Assembly (NCBI GenBank): GCA_903897145.1
Contig: CAIUAN010000057.1
Coordinates: forward strand, 62,001 to 126,000
Direction of reading: 5' to 3'
Source of the DNA: an uncultured Bacteroidia bacterium
GTDB lineage: Bacteria > Bacteroidota > Bacteroidia > Bacteroidales > Prolixibacteraceae
Length of the DNA stretch: 64,000 nucleotides
Position numbers and translations under genes: made by a program. Position 1 is the stretch's first letter, and each line of letters opens with the position of its first letter. This document shows positions 3,137-62,191 of this stretch, in pieces. The notes under the pieces are model-generated. The model did not search any database. It was not told where the DNA came from and saw nothing but the letters and a program-made list of their open reading frames with translations.

Positions 3137-3526
3137 CTAATCCAGCTGTTCCATTAAGGTATCTAAACATTGAGAAATTCCTTTCGGATCGTCATGCAAG
3201 ATGCATGTTGCAAAAGCAGCAACCGAAGTTGCCAAATCAATAACTTTCTGAATGTTCGATAGTATCTTCAGCGTCTGTTGAATTTGATGCGTAAGCTTTC
3301 TCATGATCTCTATGAATGACTCTGTATCATCAAACTGCAACAAAGTAGACTTAATAAATCCCTGTTCTGCAGCACGAAGAATGGCAATACACGAATCTGA
3401 AAGAAGCTGATCTTCCTCTTTTGAAAGGTGTTCAAAATTAACCCTTCTATAATCTTGTATAGCTGAACCCATTTCACGGAAGTGTTTGGATAGCTGGGTT
3501 AATTCAACCGCATTTAAATTGATCAT
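3137..3526 (-). CDS. Hypothetical helical protein, partner of the upstream lipoprotein
   Basis: I do not recognise this 129-residue protein. It has no signal peptide or membrane segment and looks mostly helical, with charged N-terminal residues and a hydrophobic stretch (VAAFATCIL) near residues 102-112. Its ATG overlaps the stop codon of the upstream lipoprotein gene in an ATGA arrangement, so the two are very probably co-translated and may work together. No catalytic motif is visible. Confidence 0.6.
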   Translation of the reverse strand: MINLNAVELTQLSKHFREMGSAIQDYRRVNFEHLSKEEDQLLSDSCIAILRAAEQGFIKSTLLQFDDTESFIEIMRKLTHQIQQTLKILSNIQKVIDLATSVAAFATCILHDDPKGISQCLDTLMEQLD

Positions 3527-4374
3527 AAGGCATGAAGTGAATTATACTGTATAATTAGATCTTCTAAGGCATGTATTGCCTGTGGCAGGACCTCTTTTAG
3601 TCGATTTAAGTCAGTGGAATCGAAGGAACCAAATAATTGCTGATGACCGACGACGAGATGCCTTAAAATCCGCGAATAAGCGATAAGGCGTTTTTCTAAA
3701 AATTCAAGTTCTCTAACTTTAGCATAATAGTTGGAAACCGCCTCTTGGCGATCCCAAGTCGACAGTGTCGGATCTTTTAATAAATTGAAGGTCTCAATCT
3801 TTCGGTTAAGTTTCTCTACCTCTAAAGTTTCCTTCAGGTTCTGTGATAGACTAAAATCCAAAAATTCCACCAATTGCTTAAATGGCTCTTGCCCATTCTG
3901 TAGATAGACACGAAGCTTCTGTTTTCTGTATTTTTGAGTGATTGCATTTGAGAATGTTTGCGTAATCGCACTATATGCCTTCATCTGATCGGAAGACAAT
4001 GAGATCAGTATGGAGTCATTTATTAAGTTTGCGAAAGGGATGAAATCAATATTTTTCAATGAATTAGCCGAAAGCTTAGCTAATCCAGCGAGGTAATTTT
4101 TCAAGGTGTGATACGTTAGTACCATGGCTTGATCCGCCTTCTCGCTAGACGAGCAAGGACAGATATTATTTTCCAAATCAAATGTTTGAATTGCATCCGA
4201 AAGGCAATTCTCGAGGCAAAATTGTTTAAAGCTTGTCCCAAGCTCATCAAACTTTTGAAGTCCGACAAGGCTAGCATTGGCATAACGATTGACATTCCTA
4301 AAACTTACGCAGCCAATCAGGAGAAAGCTAACAAGAATTACTAGGAGAAGTTTACCTTGAAATTTTTGCACCAT
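3523..4374 (-). CDS. Hypothetical lipoprotein, helical
   Basis: This 283-residue protein begins with a lipoprotein signal peptide: basic MVQKFQGK, a hydrophobic stretch and a lipobox ending in Cys22 (LLIGC). The rest is rich in Leu, Lys and Glu heptad-like stretches and is predicted to be helical. A further Cys cluster at residues of about 54-73 (CLENC, CPC) could form disulfides. I cannot assign a family. It is divergent from rdgB, and its stop codon overlaps the start of the next gene by four bases. The leading Cys suggests an outer- or inner-membrane anchored periplasmic protein. Confidence 0.65.
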   Translation of the reverse strand: MVQKFQGKLLLVILVSFLLIGCVSFRNVNRYANASLVGLQKFDELGTSFKQFCLENCLSDAIQTFDLENNICPCSSSEKADQAMVLTYHTLKNYLAGLAKLSANSLKNIDFIPFANLINDSILISLSSDQMKAYSAITQTFSNAITQKYRKQKLRVYLQNGQEPFKQLVEFLDFSLSQNLKETLEVEKLNRKIETFNLLKDPTLSTWDRQEAVSNYYAKVRELEFLEKRLIAYSRILRHLVVGHQQLFGSFDSTDLNRLKEVLPQAIHALEDLIIQYNSLHAL

Positions 4375-4500
4375 AATGAATAAGTCGAAACAATGACTGA
4401 TAATTTTTATAGTACGAATGAACAGGCAAATGATTACATTGAATCTCTAGTTGACATAAAACGAGTTTGAATACAAGAGATGATACAAGACGAAATAGTT

Positions 4501-4508
4501 TAATTTTG
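4501..4508 (+). promoter_or_regulatory. Candidate -7 element for rdgB
   Basis: TAATTTTG matches the Bacteroidota -7 consensus TAnnTTTG. It lies 21 bases before the ATG at 4530 and inside the longer upstream reading frame, which argues for the shorter start. No clear -33 TTTG is seen at the usual spacing. Confidence 0.5.
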
Positions 4509-4529
4509 CATGAAACAAGTAACAGGTCC

Positions 4530-5108
4530 ATGAAGCGATTAGTTTTTGCAACCAATAATGCCCATAAATTAGAGGAGATCAGACAATTAATTCCAGAGCA
4601 CTACCAAGTAAGGAGTTTGAATGATATTGGATGTGATGTAGATATTCCGGAGACCGGCACGACCCTTGAAGCCAATGCGGCGCAAAAATCGCACTACATC
4701 TGGGAGAATTACGCGATCAACTGTTTTGCAGACGATACCGGATTAGAGATTGAGGCCTTAAATAATGAGCCAGGAGTTTATTCGGCGCGTTATGCAGGAG
4801 AAGAGCGGAGTGCGCTAGCAAACATGAAAAAAGTTCTCGATTTGATGGAACATCAATCCAATCGGGAAGCTCGGTTCAGAACGGTTATTTCACTGATTCT
4901 AGATGGTGTTGAACATCAGTTTGAAGGAGTTGTAGAAGGGACTATTTCCACCCAAATGACAGGCAGTAGCGGATTTGGCTACGACCCTATTTTTGTGCCA
5001 GATGGCTATTCACGTTCCTTTGCAGAGATGTCGGCAGCCGAGAAGAACCAGGTTAGTCATCGTGGAAGAGCAGTAGAAAAGTTGATTCATTTTTTGCAAA
5101 ACCGATAG
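4530..5108 (+). CDS. rdgB: RdgB/HAM1 family dITP/XTP pyrophosphatase
   Basis: This enzyme hydrolyses non-canonical purine NTPs (dITP, XTP) to the monophosphate and pyrophosphate, keeping deaminated bases out of nucleic acids. The start at 4530 gives 192 residues opening with [16 protein letters not shown], the conserved family N-terminus with the (S/T)xNxxK motif. An earlier in-frame ATG at 4467 would add 21 residues with no family counterpart and would lie upstream of the -7 element. Other family segments are [21 protein letters not shown] and [13 protein letters not shown]. recO follows 39 bases later in the same direction, so the two may share a transcript. Confidence 0.95.
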
Positions 5109-5147
5109 GGTTAATATCCAATTATTCAACAAATAAACGATCGAAAT

Positions 5148-5873
5148 ATGCTTCAAAAAACCCGTGGAATCGTGCTACATAGTCTCAAGTATGGCGACAC
5201 AGGTCTGATTACAACGATCTATACGGAGCTTCATGGCCGGCTTTCGTTTATGATGCAAGGAACTCATGGGAAAAAGTCGGCTGTAAAAGCAAATCTTCTT
5301 CGACAGTTTTCACTTCTAGAGATGGAAGTTGATTTCAAGCCAGGACGAGATCTTCAGCGCGTAAAAGAGCTAAAGATACACACTCCATTTCAGTCCATTC
5401 CTTATGAAATAGCCAAATCAACACAAGTTCTTTTTCTAGCGGAGCTTCTGAATAAGGTGTTGCGTGAAGAAGAAGCCCACCCTGAGTTATTTGAATTTAT
5501 TTTTAGCTCAATACTAATTTTTGATCTTATGGAAGATGGAATTGGTAATTTTCATCTAATCTTTTTGCTTCAACTCACCCGATTTCTAGGGTTTGCACCG
5601 ACCAATAATTACATTCCAGATTATCCGTTCTTCGATATGATCGTTGGGAAATTCGTTTTGATGCCTCCCAACCATCCTCGGTATTTAAAAGAGCGGGGAA
5701 GTTCAACACTTCACGAACTTCTAAAAACAAACTTTCAAAACTCAAATAATGTCAAAATAGACAGTGAGTTAAGAGTCTCGATGCTCCAATTTTTGTTAGA
5801 TTATTATGAATTACACTTAGGATCTAAACTAAGTCTAAAATCATTAGAAATTGTGCGTGATATTCTTCATTAA
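5148..5873 (+). CDS. recO: DNA repair protein RecO
   Basis: RecO loads RecA on SSB-coated single-stranded DNA together with RecR in the RecFOR recombination pathway. The 241-residue product has the N-terminal OB-fold segment (TRGIVLHSLKYGDTGLI, GRLSFMMQGTHGKKS) followed by a helical C-terminal half, and its length fits the family. The Cys4 zinc site seen in many RecO proteins is not apparent; a non-zinc version is common in Bacteroidota. It follows rdgB closely. Confidence 0.93.
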   Translation: MLQKTRGIVLHSLKYGDTGLITTIYTELHGRLSFMMQGTHGKKSAVKANLLRQFSLLEMEVDFKPGRDLQRVKELKIHTPFQSIPYEIAKSTQVLFLAELLNKVLREEEAHPELFEFIFSSILIFDLMEDGIGNFHLIFLLQLTRFLGFAPTNNYIPDYPFFDMIVGKFVLMPPNHPRYLKERGSSTLHELLKTNFQNSNNVKIDSELRVSMLQFLLDYYELHLGSKLSLKSLEIVRDILH

Positions 5874-5960: not shown

Positions 5961-5968
5961 TACTTTTG
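5961..5968 (+). promoter_or_regulatory. Candidate -7 element for the aminotransferase-fold gene
   Basis: TACTTTTG matches TAnnTTTG and lies 26 bases before the ATG at 5995, implying a leader of about 20 bases. This supports the gene being expressed from its own promoter rather than by read-through from recO. Confidence 0.5.
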
Positions 5969-5994: not shown

Positions 5995-7149
5995 ATGAGT
6001 TCGTCAAAGATTTCAACGCCTAAAAAAAATTCCTTAGCAACAATTCTTGAAATTGCTGAGGGACTAAATGCCATCGACTTAGCCATTCCTATGTCCAATC
6101 TTGCTTGCCCAGAGAAATTAATTGATCTGGTTGGCAAGTATATGAGACTTGGAAACAATGACTATTCGCCGGTAGAAGGGGTTGCAAAATTAAGAGAACA
6201 GATTATTGCCTTAGTCAACAAACAGAACAAGACCAATTTAAATCCGAATACAGATATCACCATTACCGCAGGTCAGGCGCAAGCGATGACAACAGCCATC
6301 AGCACTTTTATAAAAGAGGGTGATGAGGTTATTGTTTTTGAGCCTGTTCAAGAGTCATATGCTCCATTTATTGAGCTTAATGGTGGCCGTCCAATCTTTG
6401 TAAACCTTAAATTGCCAGATTTCAGAATTGACTGGGACGAGGTAAAAAAACTGGTCACCTCTAAGACGAGGATGATCATCATCAACAATCCTCAAAACCC
6501 AATTGGCCGAATATTCAGCGAAGAGGATCTTGATCAATTAAAACGAATGACCAACGGGACGCGCATTGTGATCCTAAGCAATGAGGTATTCGACAATATT
6601 GTTTATGATGGTGCAAAATTTAACAGCTTAGCTTCTGTTCCAGACCTTGCTGCGAAAAGCTTAATCGTCTCAAGCTTTGGACCTGCATTTAACATTACTG
6701 GCTGGGGTATTGGATATATTTTCGGACCTGAAAAATTAATGGTTGAGTTTCGTAAGATTCAGCAATTTCAAGGGTTTAGTGTAAATACACCTGCTCAGCA
6801 TGCACTGGCCGAATTCTTAGAAGATGGTCCCGATTTCGATGCCATCTGTGCGACCTATCATGCCAAGCGCGACTTGTTTCTTGAAGCCTTAAAAGGCAGT
6901 CAGTTTGAGTTTGTCCCTACTCAATCAACTTTTTATCAGATTCTGAATTACAGCAAAATATCTGACGAGACAGATGTGGAGTTTGCCTCTAAGCTAATCA
7001 TTGAGCATGGCGTTGCTACGGTGCCTTTCTCGGCTTTCCAGCATGAAAAAACAAAGCATCAGCTTATTCGCATCTGCTTTGCTAAGCCTGACGAAGTCCT
7101 ATTAGAGGCCGCAGCAAAATTAAAAAGTCTTCCTCCGAAATCTCGGTAA
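5995..7149 (+). CDS. Fold-type I aminotransferase homologue lacking the catalytic Lys (probable pseudoenzyme)
   Basis: The 384-residue product aligns throughout with class I/II aminotransferases of the methionine/kynurenine aminotransferase type. It keeps YSPVEG, the TAG helix segment, Asn168 in NPQNP, TGW-GIGY, FSVNTPAQ and the carboxylate-binding Arg359. Three cofactor residues are replaced. The Schiff-base Lys of the SFGK motif is Pro230 (SFGPAFN), the pyridine-nitrogen Asp of the (S)DEVY motif is Asn196, and the Tyr of that motif is Phe199 (SNEVF). Normal PLP transamination should therefore be impossible, yet the frame is intact. ATG 5995 is preferred over the in-frame GTG at 5986. A sensory or structural role, or binding of a PLP-amino acid adduct, is inference. 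Confidence 0.85.
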   Translation: MSSSKISTPKKNSLATILEIAEGLNAIDLAIPMSNLACPEKLIDLVGKYMRLGNNDYSPVEGVAKLREQIIALVNKQNKTNLNPNTDITITAGQAQAMTTAISTFIKEGDEVIVFEPVQESYAPFIELNGGRPIFVNLKLPDFRIDWDEVKKLVTSKTRMIIINNPQNPIGRIFSEEDLDQLKRMTNGTRIVILSNEVFDNIVYDGAKFNSLASVPDLAAKSLIVSSFGPAFNITGWGIGYIFGPEKLMVEFRKIQQFQGFSVNTPAQHALAEFLEDGPDFDAICATYHAKRDLFLEALKGSQFEFVPTQSTFYQILNYSKISDETDVEFASKLIIEHGVATVPFSAFQHEKTKHQLIRICFAKPDEVLLEAAAKLKSLPPKSR

Positions 7150-7224: not shown

Positions 7225-7296
7225 GGCCTCATAGTTCAAGGGATAGAATAGAAGTTTCCTAAACTTTAGATTCGCGTTCGAGTCGCGGTGAGGCTA
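7225..7296 (+). tRNA. tRNA-Arg (anticodon CCU)
   Basis: A full cloverleaf can be folded: acceptor GGCCTCA/TGAGGCT, T8 A9, D stem GTTC/GAAT with an AAGGGATA loop, anticodon stem GAAGT/ACTTT with loop TTCCTAA (anticodon CCT, decoding AGG), a short variable loop, and T stem TCGCG/CGCGG with loop TTCGAGT. The discriminator is A73, and the 3' CCA is not encoded. The first acceptor pair is G1-U72. A strong terminator follows directly. Confidence 0.92.
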
Positions 7297-7297
7297 C

Positions 7298-43262: not shown

Positions 43263-44654
43263 TCAATCTGCCTTATCATGCAGGAAAGCGTTATTTTTAC
43301 GCAACTTAGGACCTTCATCGGGATTGTCAGATAACGAATATCTAGAAATCTCTTGAGAAGGACCTTTTGCTTTTCTTCGCTCGTAAGCTGGTATTTTAGT
43401 TAGCTCATCGATATAATCATCCGGTTTATTATAAAAATCAACATGCATCACGCGTTTAGCCTCTTCTGAAGTGCCATCACCAAATGGATCGATTCGGATT
43501 GGAGGATAGAGTTGTTTTATGATATCATCCTTTTTGTCGACTGCGGACTCCGTAAAGACCGGATATTTAGGAGCAGTGACGGCATCGTATTCGAAGAAGT
43601 CATCAGGAAAAGATGTTTGATCGTCGAGGAGTGGAATTTTCTCACGCAAAGGCTGCGTGCCCCCATTGAGTTCAACAATTGAGCTAGTCTTAAATCCTGT
43701 AGCAATAACAGTTACGCAAATTGAGTCGCCTAAATCTAGATCCACAGCAACGCCATAAATTAGATCTGCATTATTCCCGGCTTGATTTTGGACATATTCA
43801 TTAACGAGGTTCATCTCATCCATGGTAACTTCTTGCGATTCACCAGAGGTGATATTTACCAAGATATTTTTTGCACCTCGGATATCATTATTATTCAGAA
43901 GTGGGGAGTTAAGCGCCCCTTCAACAGCTTTCCAAGCTCGGCTCTCGCCATTGGCTTTATACGAACCCATGATCGCCACACCTGAATTTTGCATCACGGT
44001 ACGGACATCTTCAAAATCGACATTGATAAATCCTGGACAGGTAATGATCTCTGCAATACCTTTTGCTGCAATTGCTAAAATATCATCTGCCTTTTCAAAC
44101 GCTTTTGAGATTGGAAAATCACCATAGATTTCCCGTATTCGTTCGTTATTTATGATTAATAATGAGTCAACATGGTCTTCTAATTCCCGAATCCCTTCAA
44201 TCGCTTGTTGAATACGTAATCGACCTTCATTACGGAAAGGAATTGACACAATGCCAATGGTGAGTATCTTGCGATCACGAGCCGCTTGAGCAATAATTGG
44301 AGCAGCCCCTGTGCCCGTTCCACCACCCATTCCAGCGGTAATAAAGACCATCTTTGTATTTCCATCGAGTAATTTATCAATATCGACTAAGTTCTCAATT
44401 GCCGATTCACGTCCCACATCAGGTTTGTTCCCTGCACCTCGTCCTTCTGTTAATGCAGAACCAAGCTGAACCTTATAAGGCACTGGACTATTCACCAATG
44501 CTTGCGCATCGGTATTACACACCGCAAAATCAACATCTTTGATCCCTTGTCGGTACATGTGGTTGACTGCATTACCACCGCCACCGCCAACACCGATAAC
44601 TTTAATAATTTTCTCCCCGGTGGTTGGTAAATCAAACTCAATTAAATCACTCAT
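43263..44654 (-). CDS. ftsZ: Cell division GTPase FtsZ, second tandem copy
   Basis: The 463-residue tubulin homologue has GVGGGGGNAVNHM at residues 21-33, the tubulin signature ITAGMGGGTGTGAAP, IPFRNEGRLR, and T7 loop NVDFEDVRTVM with the GTP-hydrolysing Asp. Nothing essential is missing. After the core there is a moderately long acidic linker and a C-terminal end reading NNAFLHDKAD, quite unlike the tail of the upstream copy. The core is clearly paralogous to that copy and 33 bases downstream of it, so both are likely made from one transcript. This copy looks the more canonical of the two in its central segment. Confidence 0.95.
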   Translation of the reverse strand: MSDLIEFDLPTTGEKIIKVIGVGGGGGNAVNHMYRQGIKDVDFAVCNTDAQALVNSPVPYKVQLGSALTEGRGAGNKPDVGRESAIENLVDIDKLLDGNTKMVFITAGMGGGTGTGAAPIIAQAARDRKILTIGIVSIPFRNEGRLRIQQAIEGIRELEDHVDSLLIINNERIREIYGDFPISKAFEKADDILAIAAKGIAEIITCPGFINVDFEDVRTVMQNSGVAIMGSYKANGESRAWKAVEGALNSPLLNNNDIRGAKNILVNITSGESQEVTMDEMNLVNEYVQNQAGNNADLIYGVAVDLDLGDSICVTVIATGFKTSSIVELNGGTQPLREKIPLLDDQTSFPDDFFEYDAVTAPKYPVFTESAVDKKDDIIKQLYPPIRIDPFGDGTSEEAKRVMHVDFYNKPDDYIDELTKIPAYERRKAKGPSQEISRYSLSDNPDEGPKLRKNNAFLHDKAD

Positions 44655-44687: not shown

Positions 44688-46106
44688 TTATCTTTTAATC
44701 TCGACATCATCCTCATCCTCATTAAATAGTGCACCAAATTGTCGGTTAAACCAGCTTCCTATTGGTTCATTGCCATCCTTGATTTTAGGAATCAGTGTTT
44801 TCTTCGTATTACGTTCCTGACGAGCTGACTCAACTTCCTTCTCATCTTTTCGGACAGTAAAAGGCTCGGCGTCAAATTCTAAGATTGAACGCTCAGGTTC
44901 TGGAGTATATGTTGGTGCTTCTATTGGCGCTGGTGCTGAAACTTGAACAGGTTCAGGTGAAGGTTGAGAAATCGGCTGAGTTACTGTTGGTGTCGGTCTG
45001 TATTCAGGGACGATCTGCGGAGGGTCTTCTCGCTCAATAATCACAGATTCTGAATCTTCAAATCGATCATATACTGGGACCACCACATTCTCTCGAATAG
45101 GTTCTGGACGCAGAATACGATTTGGATTAATCTCAAATCCTGTGGCAATAACAGTAACACTAATCTTGTTTCCAAGTTTCGCATCGTAGCCATTACCCCA
45201 GATAATATTTGCATTATCACCAGCTGCATTTTGCAGATAATCAATAATATCGCCAATCTCGCCCATGCGTACTTCCTCTTCACCAGAGGTAATGTTAAGA
45301 AGTATATTTTCAGTTCCAAAAATATCGTTACTATCCAAAAGTGGTGATCGAAGTGCCTCTTCGGCGGCCCGAGTGGCTCTATTTTCCCCTTCGGCAAATC
45401 CTGTTCCCATAATAAAGACGCCGCTATCGCGAAGGACGGTGTTTACATCGGCAAAATCAATGTTGATATTACCGTGGAGTGTAATAATTTCCGCACAACC
45501 TTTAACAGCCGCTGCGACGATATTATCGGCTTGAGCAAAAGCCTCTCGAGCAGGCAGGTCTCCATAAACCTTATGTAAGTTTTCGTTGCTAATAACCAAT
45601 AAACTATCGACATAACGCTGCAATCTCTTGATCCCCTCAACAGCTTGTTCATAACGCAATCGGCCCTCTTTTATAGATGGAAGTGTTACAACGGCAATGG
45701 TCAGGATATCCATCTCACGGGCAAGCTGTGCAATCACAGGAGCTGCGCCCGTACCTGTTCCTCCGCCCATTCCTGCGGTGATAAAGACCATTTTCGTTCC
45801 AGTCTCCAGAACGGCCCGAATCTCAGCAAGATTTTCAATCGCTGCTTGCTCGCCTCGTTTGGGTTTATTTCCAGCCCCTCGCCCTTCGGTCAATGAGACG
45901 CCAAGTTGAACCTTAACGGGTACTGGGCTATTCACAAGAGCTTGCGCATCGGTATTACAGACCAAAAAGTCAACGCCTGCGATCCCTTTCAGGAACATAT
46001 GATTAACAGCATTTCCTCCGCCGCCACCAACACCTACGACTTTGATTATTGATTGGTAATCGTGTTGAAAACCAAAGGTCAATAAATCTTCTGAATCATC
46101 TTTCAT
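44688..46106 (-). CDS. ftsZ: Cell division GTPase FtsZ, first tandem copy
   Basis: The 472-residue protein carries GVGGGGGNAVNHM at residues 25-37, ITAGMGGGTGTGAAP and a T7 loop NIDFADVNTVL with its Asp, so it should bind and hydrolyse GTP. It differs from the second copy in LPSIKEGRLRYEQ, in the helix after the T7 region, and most strongly in the C-terminal part. That part is a Pro-rich linker (about residues 355-410) followed by a tail with GSWFNRQFGALFNEDEDD. FtsZ tails bind FtsA and other partners, so the two copies may be recruited differently. It follows ftsA by 18 bases. Confidence 0.95.
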   Translation of the reverse strand: MKDDSEDLLTFGFQHDYQSIIKVVGVGGGGGNAVNHMFLKGIAGVDFLVCNTDAQALVNSPVPVKVQLGVSLTEGRGAGNKPKRGEQAAIENLAEIRAVLETGTKMVFITAGMGGGTGTGAAPVIAQLAREMDILTIAVVTLPSIKEGRLRYEQAVEGIKRLQRYVDSLLVISNENLHKVYGDLPAREAFAQADNIVAAAVKGCAEIITLHGNINIDFADVNTVLRDSGVFIMGTGFAEGENRATRAAEEALRSPLLDSNDIFGTENILLNITSGEEEVRMGEIGDIIDYLQNAAGDNANIIWGNGYDAKLGNKISVTVIATGFEINPNRILRPEPIRENVVVPVYDRFEDSESVIIEREDPPQIVPEYRPTPTVTQPISQPSPEPVQVSAPAPIEAPTYTPEPERSILEFDAEPFTVRKDEKEVESARQERNTKKTLIPKIKDGNEPIGSWFNRQFGALFNEDEDDVEIKR

Positions 46107-61219: not shown

Positions 61220-62191
61220 ATGAAGGAAATACATCCTCCAATTGCACGCGATCTTATTGAAGCCGAGTTGACGCCTGATAAATTTCAGCGGAAAACGAAC
61301 AAAGCGGAGAATGAGATTTATATCCTAACCCATCATGATTCACCTAATATCATGTTGGAGATTGGTCGTTTGCGCGAATTAACCTTTCGTGCTGCTGGCG
61401 GAGGAGTTGGAGAAGAGGTTGATATTGATCATTATGACACAAGAGATGAGCATCCATATAAGCAGCTTATCGTTTGGGATCCAAGCAGAAAAGAGATTCT
61501 AGGGGGCTATCGATTTATCCATTGCGCAGGAATTTCACGTGATAAAACCGGTGAAGTACCTCTAGCGACAGCCCACTTATTCAATTTTTCGGATGAATTT
61601 ATTGAAGATTATTTACCCTACGTGATTGAATTAGGTCGTTCATTTGTGCAACCCGAATATCAATCGAGTAAAGCTGGAGCAAAGGCCTTATTTGCATTAG
61701 ATAATCTTTGGGACGGACTAGGTGCGCTGATGATTGACCATCCCGATATTCGTTATTTCTTCGGGAAAGTAACCATGTATACGCATTACAACATCCATGC
61801 ACGGAATTTAATCCTTCACTTTTTTGAACTATTCTTCCCCGATCCTCAAGGTTTGGTAACCCCTAAAAAGCGGATGCCGATCAACGCTGATTCAACGCAT
61901 CTCGACGAGCTATTTGTGGGGAAAGAGTATGACGAAGCTTATAAAATACTATCTGCAGAGGTTCGAAGTCATGGAGAGAATATTCCCCCTTTGATCAACG
62001 CCTATATGAGTCTTACGCCATCTATGCGGGCCTTTGGGACCGTTATCAGCGATGAGTTTGGCGATGTGGAAGAGACGGGTATTTTATTGGACATCGACGA
62101 CATGTATGATACGAAGATCGATCGACATGTTGGCACCTATCTCGAGGAACTTGCGGATAAGTTAGAGAATCCAAAGGTCAGATTTCAATAA
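61220..62191 (+). CDS. glsB: Amino acid N-acyltransferase (hemolysin/OlsB-GlsB family)
   Basis: The 323-residue protein belongs to the GNAT-fold family often labelled hemolysin, which includes OlsB and the Bacteroides glycine N-acyltransferase GlsB. Typical segments are IGRLRELTFRAAGGGVGEEVDID, LGGYRFIHCAG, ELGRSFVQPEYQSS, and DNLWDGLGALM. It would transfer a 3-hydroxyacyl chain from acyl-ACP to the amino group of an amino acid, probably glycine in this phylum. It lies 76 bases after the O-acyltransferase gene. Confidence 0.75.
   Translation: MKEIHPPIARDLIEAELTPDKFQRKTNKAENEIYILTHHDSPNIMLEIGRLRELTFRAAGGGVGEEVDIDHYDTRDEHPYKQLIVWDPSRKEILGGYRFIHCAGISRDKTGEVPLATAHLFNFSDEFIEDYLPYVIELGRSFVQPEYQSSKAGAKALFALDNLWDGLGALMIDHPDIRYFFGKVTMYTHYNIHARNLILHFFELFFPDPQGLVTPKKRMPINADSTHLDELFVGKEYDEAYKILSAEVRSHGENIPPLINAYMSLTPSMRAFGTVISDEFGDVEETGILLDIDDMYDTKIDRHVGTYLEELADKLENPKVRFQ

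Follow-up and report, generated by a model that had tools for sequence, protein, structure and literature searches.

A recO-linked aminotransferase relative lacking the cofactor lysine is probably a conserved pseudoenzyme in Prolixibacteraceae

The locus and its gene

We analysed a 64,000-nucleotide stretch of DNA (the window) from an uncultured bacterium of the Prolixibacteraceae (Bacteroidota, Bacteroidales), positions 62,001 to 126,000 of contig CAIUAN010000057.1 in assembly GCA_903897145.1. Behind recO it carries a gene for a 384-amino-acid (aa) relative of the KAT/YbdL aminotransferases that lacks the Schiff-base lysine for pyridoxal 5'-phosphate (PLP). The features of the locus are collected in Table 1. 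A reading of the letters alone that preceded this work (the sequence-only reading) had called the gene intact, and its open reading frame (ORF) is indeed uninterrupted from start to stop codon. A tRNA-Arg gene (anticodon CCT; 7225-7297, plus strand), the sole tRNA that ARAGORN reports in the window, lies directly 3' of it.

The closest known systems are YbdL, the E. coli methionine aminotransferase (PDB 1u08), and the KAT/glutamine transaminase K clade. YbdL was the top match when the window protein was compared with PDB chains by phmmer (E = 1.4e-77). The KAT/YbdL homology spans the full length of the protein, and its predicted structure has the fold-type I aminotransferase fold by VIA-align comparison. 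A lysine-bearing relative from Bacteroidota, L046, is 49% identical over 363 aligned residues, with zero gaps.

Table 1. Features of the locus and residues at the cofactor and substrate sites. Family counts are out of 82 distinct lysine-less sequences and canonical counts out of 46 sequences.
Feature	Position	Strand	Observation
Lysine-less KAT/YbdL-family probable pseudo-aminotransferase, 384 aa	5995..7149	+	ATG at 5995, stop ends 7149
Pro for the PLP Schiff-base Lys	codon 230 (CCT), 6682..6684	+	Lys in 0/82 family
Asn for the pyridine-N Asp	codon 196, 6580..6582	+	Asn 34/82, Asp 43/82, other 5/82
Phe for the O3' Tyr	codon 199, 6589..6591	+	Phe 77/82, Tyr kept 3/82
Gly for the phosphate-binding Lys	codon 238, 6706..6708	+	Gly 74/82, Lys/Arg 0/82; Lys/Arg in 46/46 canonical
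Ala for the phosphate-cup Thr	codon 95, 6277..6279	+	Thr in 46/46 canonical, 4/82 family
Gln for the ring-stacking Tyr/Phe	codon 119, 6349..6351	+	Tyr/Phe 45/82, Gln 26/82
Retained Asn	codon 168, 6496..6498	+	Asn in 81/82
Retained substrate-carboxylate Arg	codon 359, 7069..7071	+	Arg in 79/82; 2 of the other 3 lost to contig ends
recO, conserved upstream neighbour	5148..5873	+	Pfam RecO_N and RecO_C
rdgB (Ham1 family), conserved further upstream	4467..5108	+	TTG start listed mechanically; a later ATG may be the true start
Putative -7 box, TACTTTTG	5961..5968	+	matches TAnnTTTG upstream of the pseudoenzyme gene

Residues of the cofactor site

In the phmmer alignment with the YbdL chain, on which YbdL residues were counted by hand, Lys236, Asp202 and Tyr205 of YbdL align with Pro230, Asn196 and Phe199 of the window protein. 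The gap-free alignment with L046 places the same three residues at the same three catalytic positions. The two alignments, the first of which the sequence-only reading had itself proposed, bear out its claim that the Schiff-base lysine, the aspartate and the tyrosine have all been replaced. Its further claim that Asn168 and Arg359 are kept was also correct. A true PLP lysine elsewhere in the protein would have spoken against that reading, and the alignments show none: the absence of gaps against L046, together with the lack of any newly conserved lysine near the site, rules out both misalignment and a displaced lysine.

We also found three cofactor-site changes that had not been listed: the phosphate-binding lysine has become Gly238, the phosphate-cup threonine Ala95 and the stacking tyrosine Gln119, positions whose roles we assume from KAT/YbdL structures. 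Across 46 canonical sequences, 119 sites reach a conservation of at least 90%; these were taken as the conserved sites. In the window protein, six of the eight cofactor-contact sites are changed versus 31 of the 111 other conserved sites (Fisher p 0.011), and nine family members tested singly gave p-values of 0.0002 to 0.059; all of these are indicative only, as the five catalytic residues served to select the canonical set and the list of contacts follows background on KAT/YbdL structures rather than a computation. The sites conserved in the canonical set but lost in the family sequences include most of the cofactor site.

We take Asn168 (by its motif) and Arg359 to be the equivalents of Asn185 and Arg398 in human KAT-1. 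Both of the human residues are described as contacting the carboxylates of bound ligands, Asn185 through a hydrogen bond (PMC4926479).

Lysine-less relatives in the family

To survey the family we searched 140 genomes for homologues at E 1e-40 or better, scoring at most 13 candidates in each, a search in which weaker paralogues may be missed. A homologue was present in 81 of the 140 genomes, and all 81 carried a lysine-less copy (81 distinct proteins); together with the named contig L039 these give the 82 distinct sequences used throughout. At the lysine site 64 have Pro, nine Ala, four Thr and two Ser, and His, Asp and Arg occur once each. The genes have full-length frames in 80 of 82 cases, and the remaining two (L119, L126) end at contig ends. 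The family includes Prolixibacter, and two named Prolixibacter strains (contigs L044 and L045) carry the gene, their proteins being identical to the family proteins L077 and L022. More strongly eroded forms also exist (L131, L132). One lysine-less protein of 401 aa (L041) has a tandem duplication of about 13 residues near the substrate-side strand (TKSTIYQL region), with the frame open.

In the window's own genome (97% complete) we found no canonical KAT that could partner or replace the pseudoenzyme. At the threshold of the family search a single one of the 140 genomes, G012, showed an additional canonical copy (L129). Ten family genomes have a further match of 28-32% identity, and the four of these that were examined (L133-L136) keep the lysine.

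Purifying selection

We estimated the ratio of nonsynonymous to synonymous substitution (dN/dS) by NG86 for family pairs at least 72% identical, keeping pairs with dS between 0.02 and 2 and dropping the others; the compared pairs share ancestry and hence are not independent. For the lysine-less genes the median was 0.043 (range 0.005-0.09; 143 usable of 456 pairs), and within the genus it was 0.039 (37 usable of 136 pairs). The canonical set gave a median of 0.041 (range 0.02-0.123), with only 16 of 34 pairs usable. In 135 of the 136 genus pairs, dN of the lysine-less gene was lower than that of the neighbouring recO.

The sequence-only reading had argued for a selected non-catalytic role over decay and had named dN/dS across the clade as the measure. 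The strong purifying selection, the presence of a lysine-less copy in every genome with a homologue, and the low dN relative to recO support that preference. Neither a broken frame nor a neutral dN/dS, as expected of a pseudogene, was seen in the window gene and its relatives. In these respects the gene resembles a conserved pseudoenzyme: an enzyme homologue without catalytic residues, conserved across a lineage and under purifying selection.

Order of the losses

In a careful tree of 72 rows (LG+C20), the 20 family rows form a single clade with support 100/99. The three losses had been described as coordinated, and here the earlier account does not hold. Loss of the lysine is universal in the family and loss of the tyrosine nearly so; the change from Asp to Asn came later. 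That change fits one event at the base of an inner clade holding L081, L044, L036, L001 and L014, and the site changed twice in total among the family rows. Residue counts and tree together thus rule out a simultaneous loss of Lys, Asp and Tyr.

Eroded forms also occur in other families of the order. We examined 40 matches, 20 among the best and 20 mostly low-scoring, from the 142 order genomes with a match, together with recO-targeted loci; all of these were hand-picked and show that eroded forms exist, not how frequent they are. The lysine site holds Glu in L164, L165, L166, L171 and L173, Arg in L168 and L172, and Ile or Val in L156 and L184, where Arg359 has become Gly as well. The lysine is kept with Asn168 or Arg359 lost in L162, L163, L176, L178, L181 and L183. 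At least four changes of lysine state are needed on either of the two trees that we built. A quick tree joins all these order relatives to the family clade (SH-aLRT 98), but the careful tree does not support the grouping (67/42), and we do not claim one origin for them. Several of the altered loci outside the family (L164, L165 and L171 with Glu; L156 and L184 with Ile or Val) are also recO-linked, and their losses may be separate. Three recO-linked genes from another family of the order (L153, L182, L185) have all five canonical catalytic residues and may offer a view of the ancestral state. In a search at the level of the class, 207 of 395 genomes had a match at E 1e-95, a count of matches only, irrespective of the residue at the lysine site.

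Gene neighbourhood and putative promoter

For 80 of the 82 family genes the fetched flank includes recO, and one of the two exceptions is a contig end (L097). Counting all distinct lysine-less sequences, recO flanks 84 of 90 (4 of the 8 outside the family). Among 63 lysine-bearing relatives, three have recO nearby and at least 27 have an omega-amidase-like nitrilase, some flanks being short. No such nitrilase was found in the fetched flanks of any of the 90 lysine-less sequences. With recO-targeted loci added, recO is in the flank of 85 of 91 lysine-less and 8 of 69 lysine-bearing genes. The window gene thus differs from its YbdL/KAT relatives in its neighbour as well as in its cofactor site. 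KAT enzymes have been described as working together with omega-amidase (PMC9309667).

Co-loss with omega-amidase was considered and dropped: a relative of that enzyme is present in 118 of the 140 family genomes without tracking the pseudoenzyme, occurring also in pseudoenzyme-free genera (g11) and not being found in the four g12 genomes, all with the pseudoenzyme. A universal pairing of recO with the aminotransferase relative throughout the order was likewise rejected, since the fetched stretches of 30 further recO loci (L187-L216), picked for having no known homologue as neighbour, contained none (the L202 stretch ends right behind recO).

The usual order in the family is rdgB, a gene of about 770 aa, recO and the pseudoenzyme gene, which follows recO after a gap of 72-219 bp at the loci where both are seen. 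Of 114 compared loci, 57 have the ~770-aa gene upstream of recO, mostly between rdgB and recO. It is missing from the window, where rdgB and recO are spaced by 39 bases (5108-5148).

The sequence-only reading had given the gene its own promoter. This is plausible: upstream lies TACTTTTG, a match to TAnnTTTG, which we take to be the Bacteroidetes -7 box. Of 85 recO-linked lysine-less genes, 79 have the motif in the 130 bp before the gene, versus a mean of 8.7 when the sequences are shuffled by mononucleotide. Only three of the 85 genes show the complete -33/-7 pattern, and in the window it was not found.

Interpretation

We read the window protein as a pseudoenzyme (probability about 0.85), in which PLP binding and transaminase chemistry would have been lost while the fold and strong selection were kept. 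A KAT/YbdL-type aminotransferase would have given up covalent and most non-covalent binding of PLP, and hence its chemistry. The predicted fold is retained, as are the Asn and Arg that would grip a substrate carboxylate, and in the family the gene behind recO is maintained by strong purifying selection. From the residues we infer that the protein neither holds PLP nor transaminates; very probably it does another job.

Several observations weigh against this reading. The NCBIfam model for methionine aminotransferase, PRK09082, scores the window protein at 410.8 bits, slightly below its cutoff of 420. Of the 18 lost sites, several (for example 29, 50, 60 and 281) make no contact with the cofactor. 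The N-terminal substrate loop (QGFPDF) is changed too in the window protein, which weakens the case for continued binding of the old substrate. Asp196 is kept in 43 and the aromatic stacking residue in 45 of the 82 family sequences, and members that keep them could perhaps still bind a B6 vitamer weakly and non-covalently. At the search threshold, 59 of the 140 family genomes show no homologue (42 of the 103 genomes with a completeness of 90% or more); the role of the pseudoenzyme is therefore dispensable at the level of genera. Support for the order-level eroded grouping is also low in the careful tree, as noted above.

What the pseudoenzyme does is a matter for more tentative proposals. It may work as a dimer that binds an amino or keto acid without PLP, acting in sensing, buffering or signalling to a partner. 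The retention of Arg359 and Asn168 prompts the guess that they would bind a carboxylate ligand, which the changed N-terminal loop weakens; binding of a partner is about as likely. Binding of a PLP adduct, another role that had been suggested, is disfavoured in the window protein by the loss of the phosphate-binding and stacking residues. More speculatively, the family could descend from an ancient PLP-free aminotransferase derivative that became an amino- or keto-acid receptor, its Arg359/Asn168 clamp reading a metabolite and the dimer conveying the signal, with similar erosion repeated in other families of the order. If so, a metabolic enzyme would have been turned into a cofactor-free sensor.

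Partner binding would make the protein a scaffold, its fold kept for a partner such as RecO, a regulator or some other enzyme, with Asn168 and Arg359 kept for structure only. We consider this possible, at less than even odds. It accounts for the retention of the fold and of many residues outside the pocket while the cofactor site was dismantled, and for the near-constant neighbour recO. That linkage may however be inherited gene order, with a separate promoter-like box before the gene; moreover, L153, L182 and L185, whose catalytic residues are intact, also adjoin recO, so recO linkage is not tied to catalytic loss. An altered chemistry, in which PLP is not needed or an amino acid or free pyridoxamine phosphate serves as co-substrate, would fit the kept Asn and Arg and a selection equal to that on the active enzyme. 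We think it unlikely: position 230 has no conserved replacement, unlike the catalytic His of ColD, and the phosphate-binding Lys and Thr are lost as well.

It is less likely still that the protein forms the inactive half of a heterodimer whose other subunit is an active aminotransferase, in the manner of LCB1 and LCB2. Tyr57, which presumably reaches over from one subunit of the dimer to the other, is kept as Tyr or Phe by 76 of the 82 family sequences, as such a subunit would have it. Yet the window's genome offers no partner from the KAT clade, other matches being 20-30% identical, and across the family the candidates at the search threshold come down to the canonical copy in G012 and the 28-32% matches of ten genomes. 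Decay of a functionless gene can be set aside as highly improbable; the drift of the lysine site among seven residues and the more eroded L131 and L132 would suit it, but dN/dS, the full-length frames and the conservation among relatives rule it out.

Lysine-less members of fold-type I are known. LCB1 of serine palmitoyltransferase and GcvPA of glycine decarboxylase lack the catalytic lysine and are paired with an active paralogue; no close active paralogue was found in the window's genome. In ColD a catalytic His replaces the PLP lysine and the cofactor is used, whereas the family described here has seven different residues at that site in 82 sequences. Inactive aminotransferase relatives have been described as well. 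S. cerevisiae Alt2 is retained in evolution without transaminase activity and with a function that its authors leave open, but it is reported to keep the catalytic residues and to form a Schiff base with PLP (PMC5960717, PMC3458083), unlike the window protein. M. tuberculosis Rv3778c lacks the lysine and is judged likely noncatalytic by its authors; it belongs to another lineage, related to cysteine desulfurases, and the section devoted to it contains no lineage-wide survey or selection test (PMC12910592). In the open library, judged by titles and the starts of abstracts, we found no description of the present Bacteroidota group.

Automatic annotation would probably label the lysine-less proteins aminotransferases and so feed metabolic models with a transamination that is very probably impossible. 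Their relatives can be ranked by degree of erosion: some recO-linked genes are intact, others are partly eroded, and others have lost the cofactor site completely. Along this series the conversion of a PLP enzyme to a pseudoenzyme can be traced and tested.

Other features of the window

On the minus strand at 3137-4374 lie two adjacent ORFs of 129 and 283 aa with no Pfam match, the longer with a lipoprotein-like start. Further along, also on the minus strand, a cell-division cluster contains tandem FtsZ-family ORFs (43263-44654 and 44688-46106), both of which match Pfam Tubulin/FtsZ and FtsZ_C.
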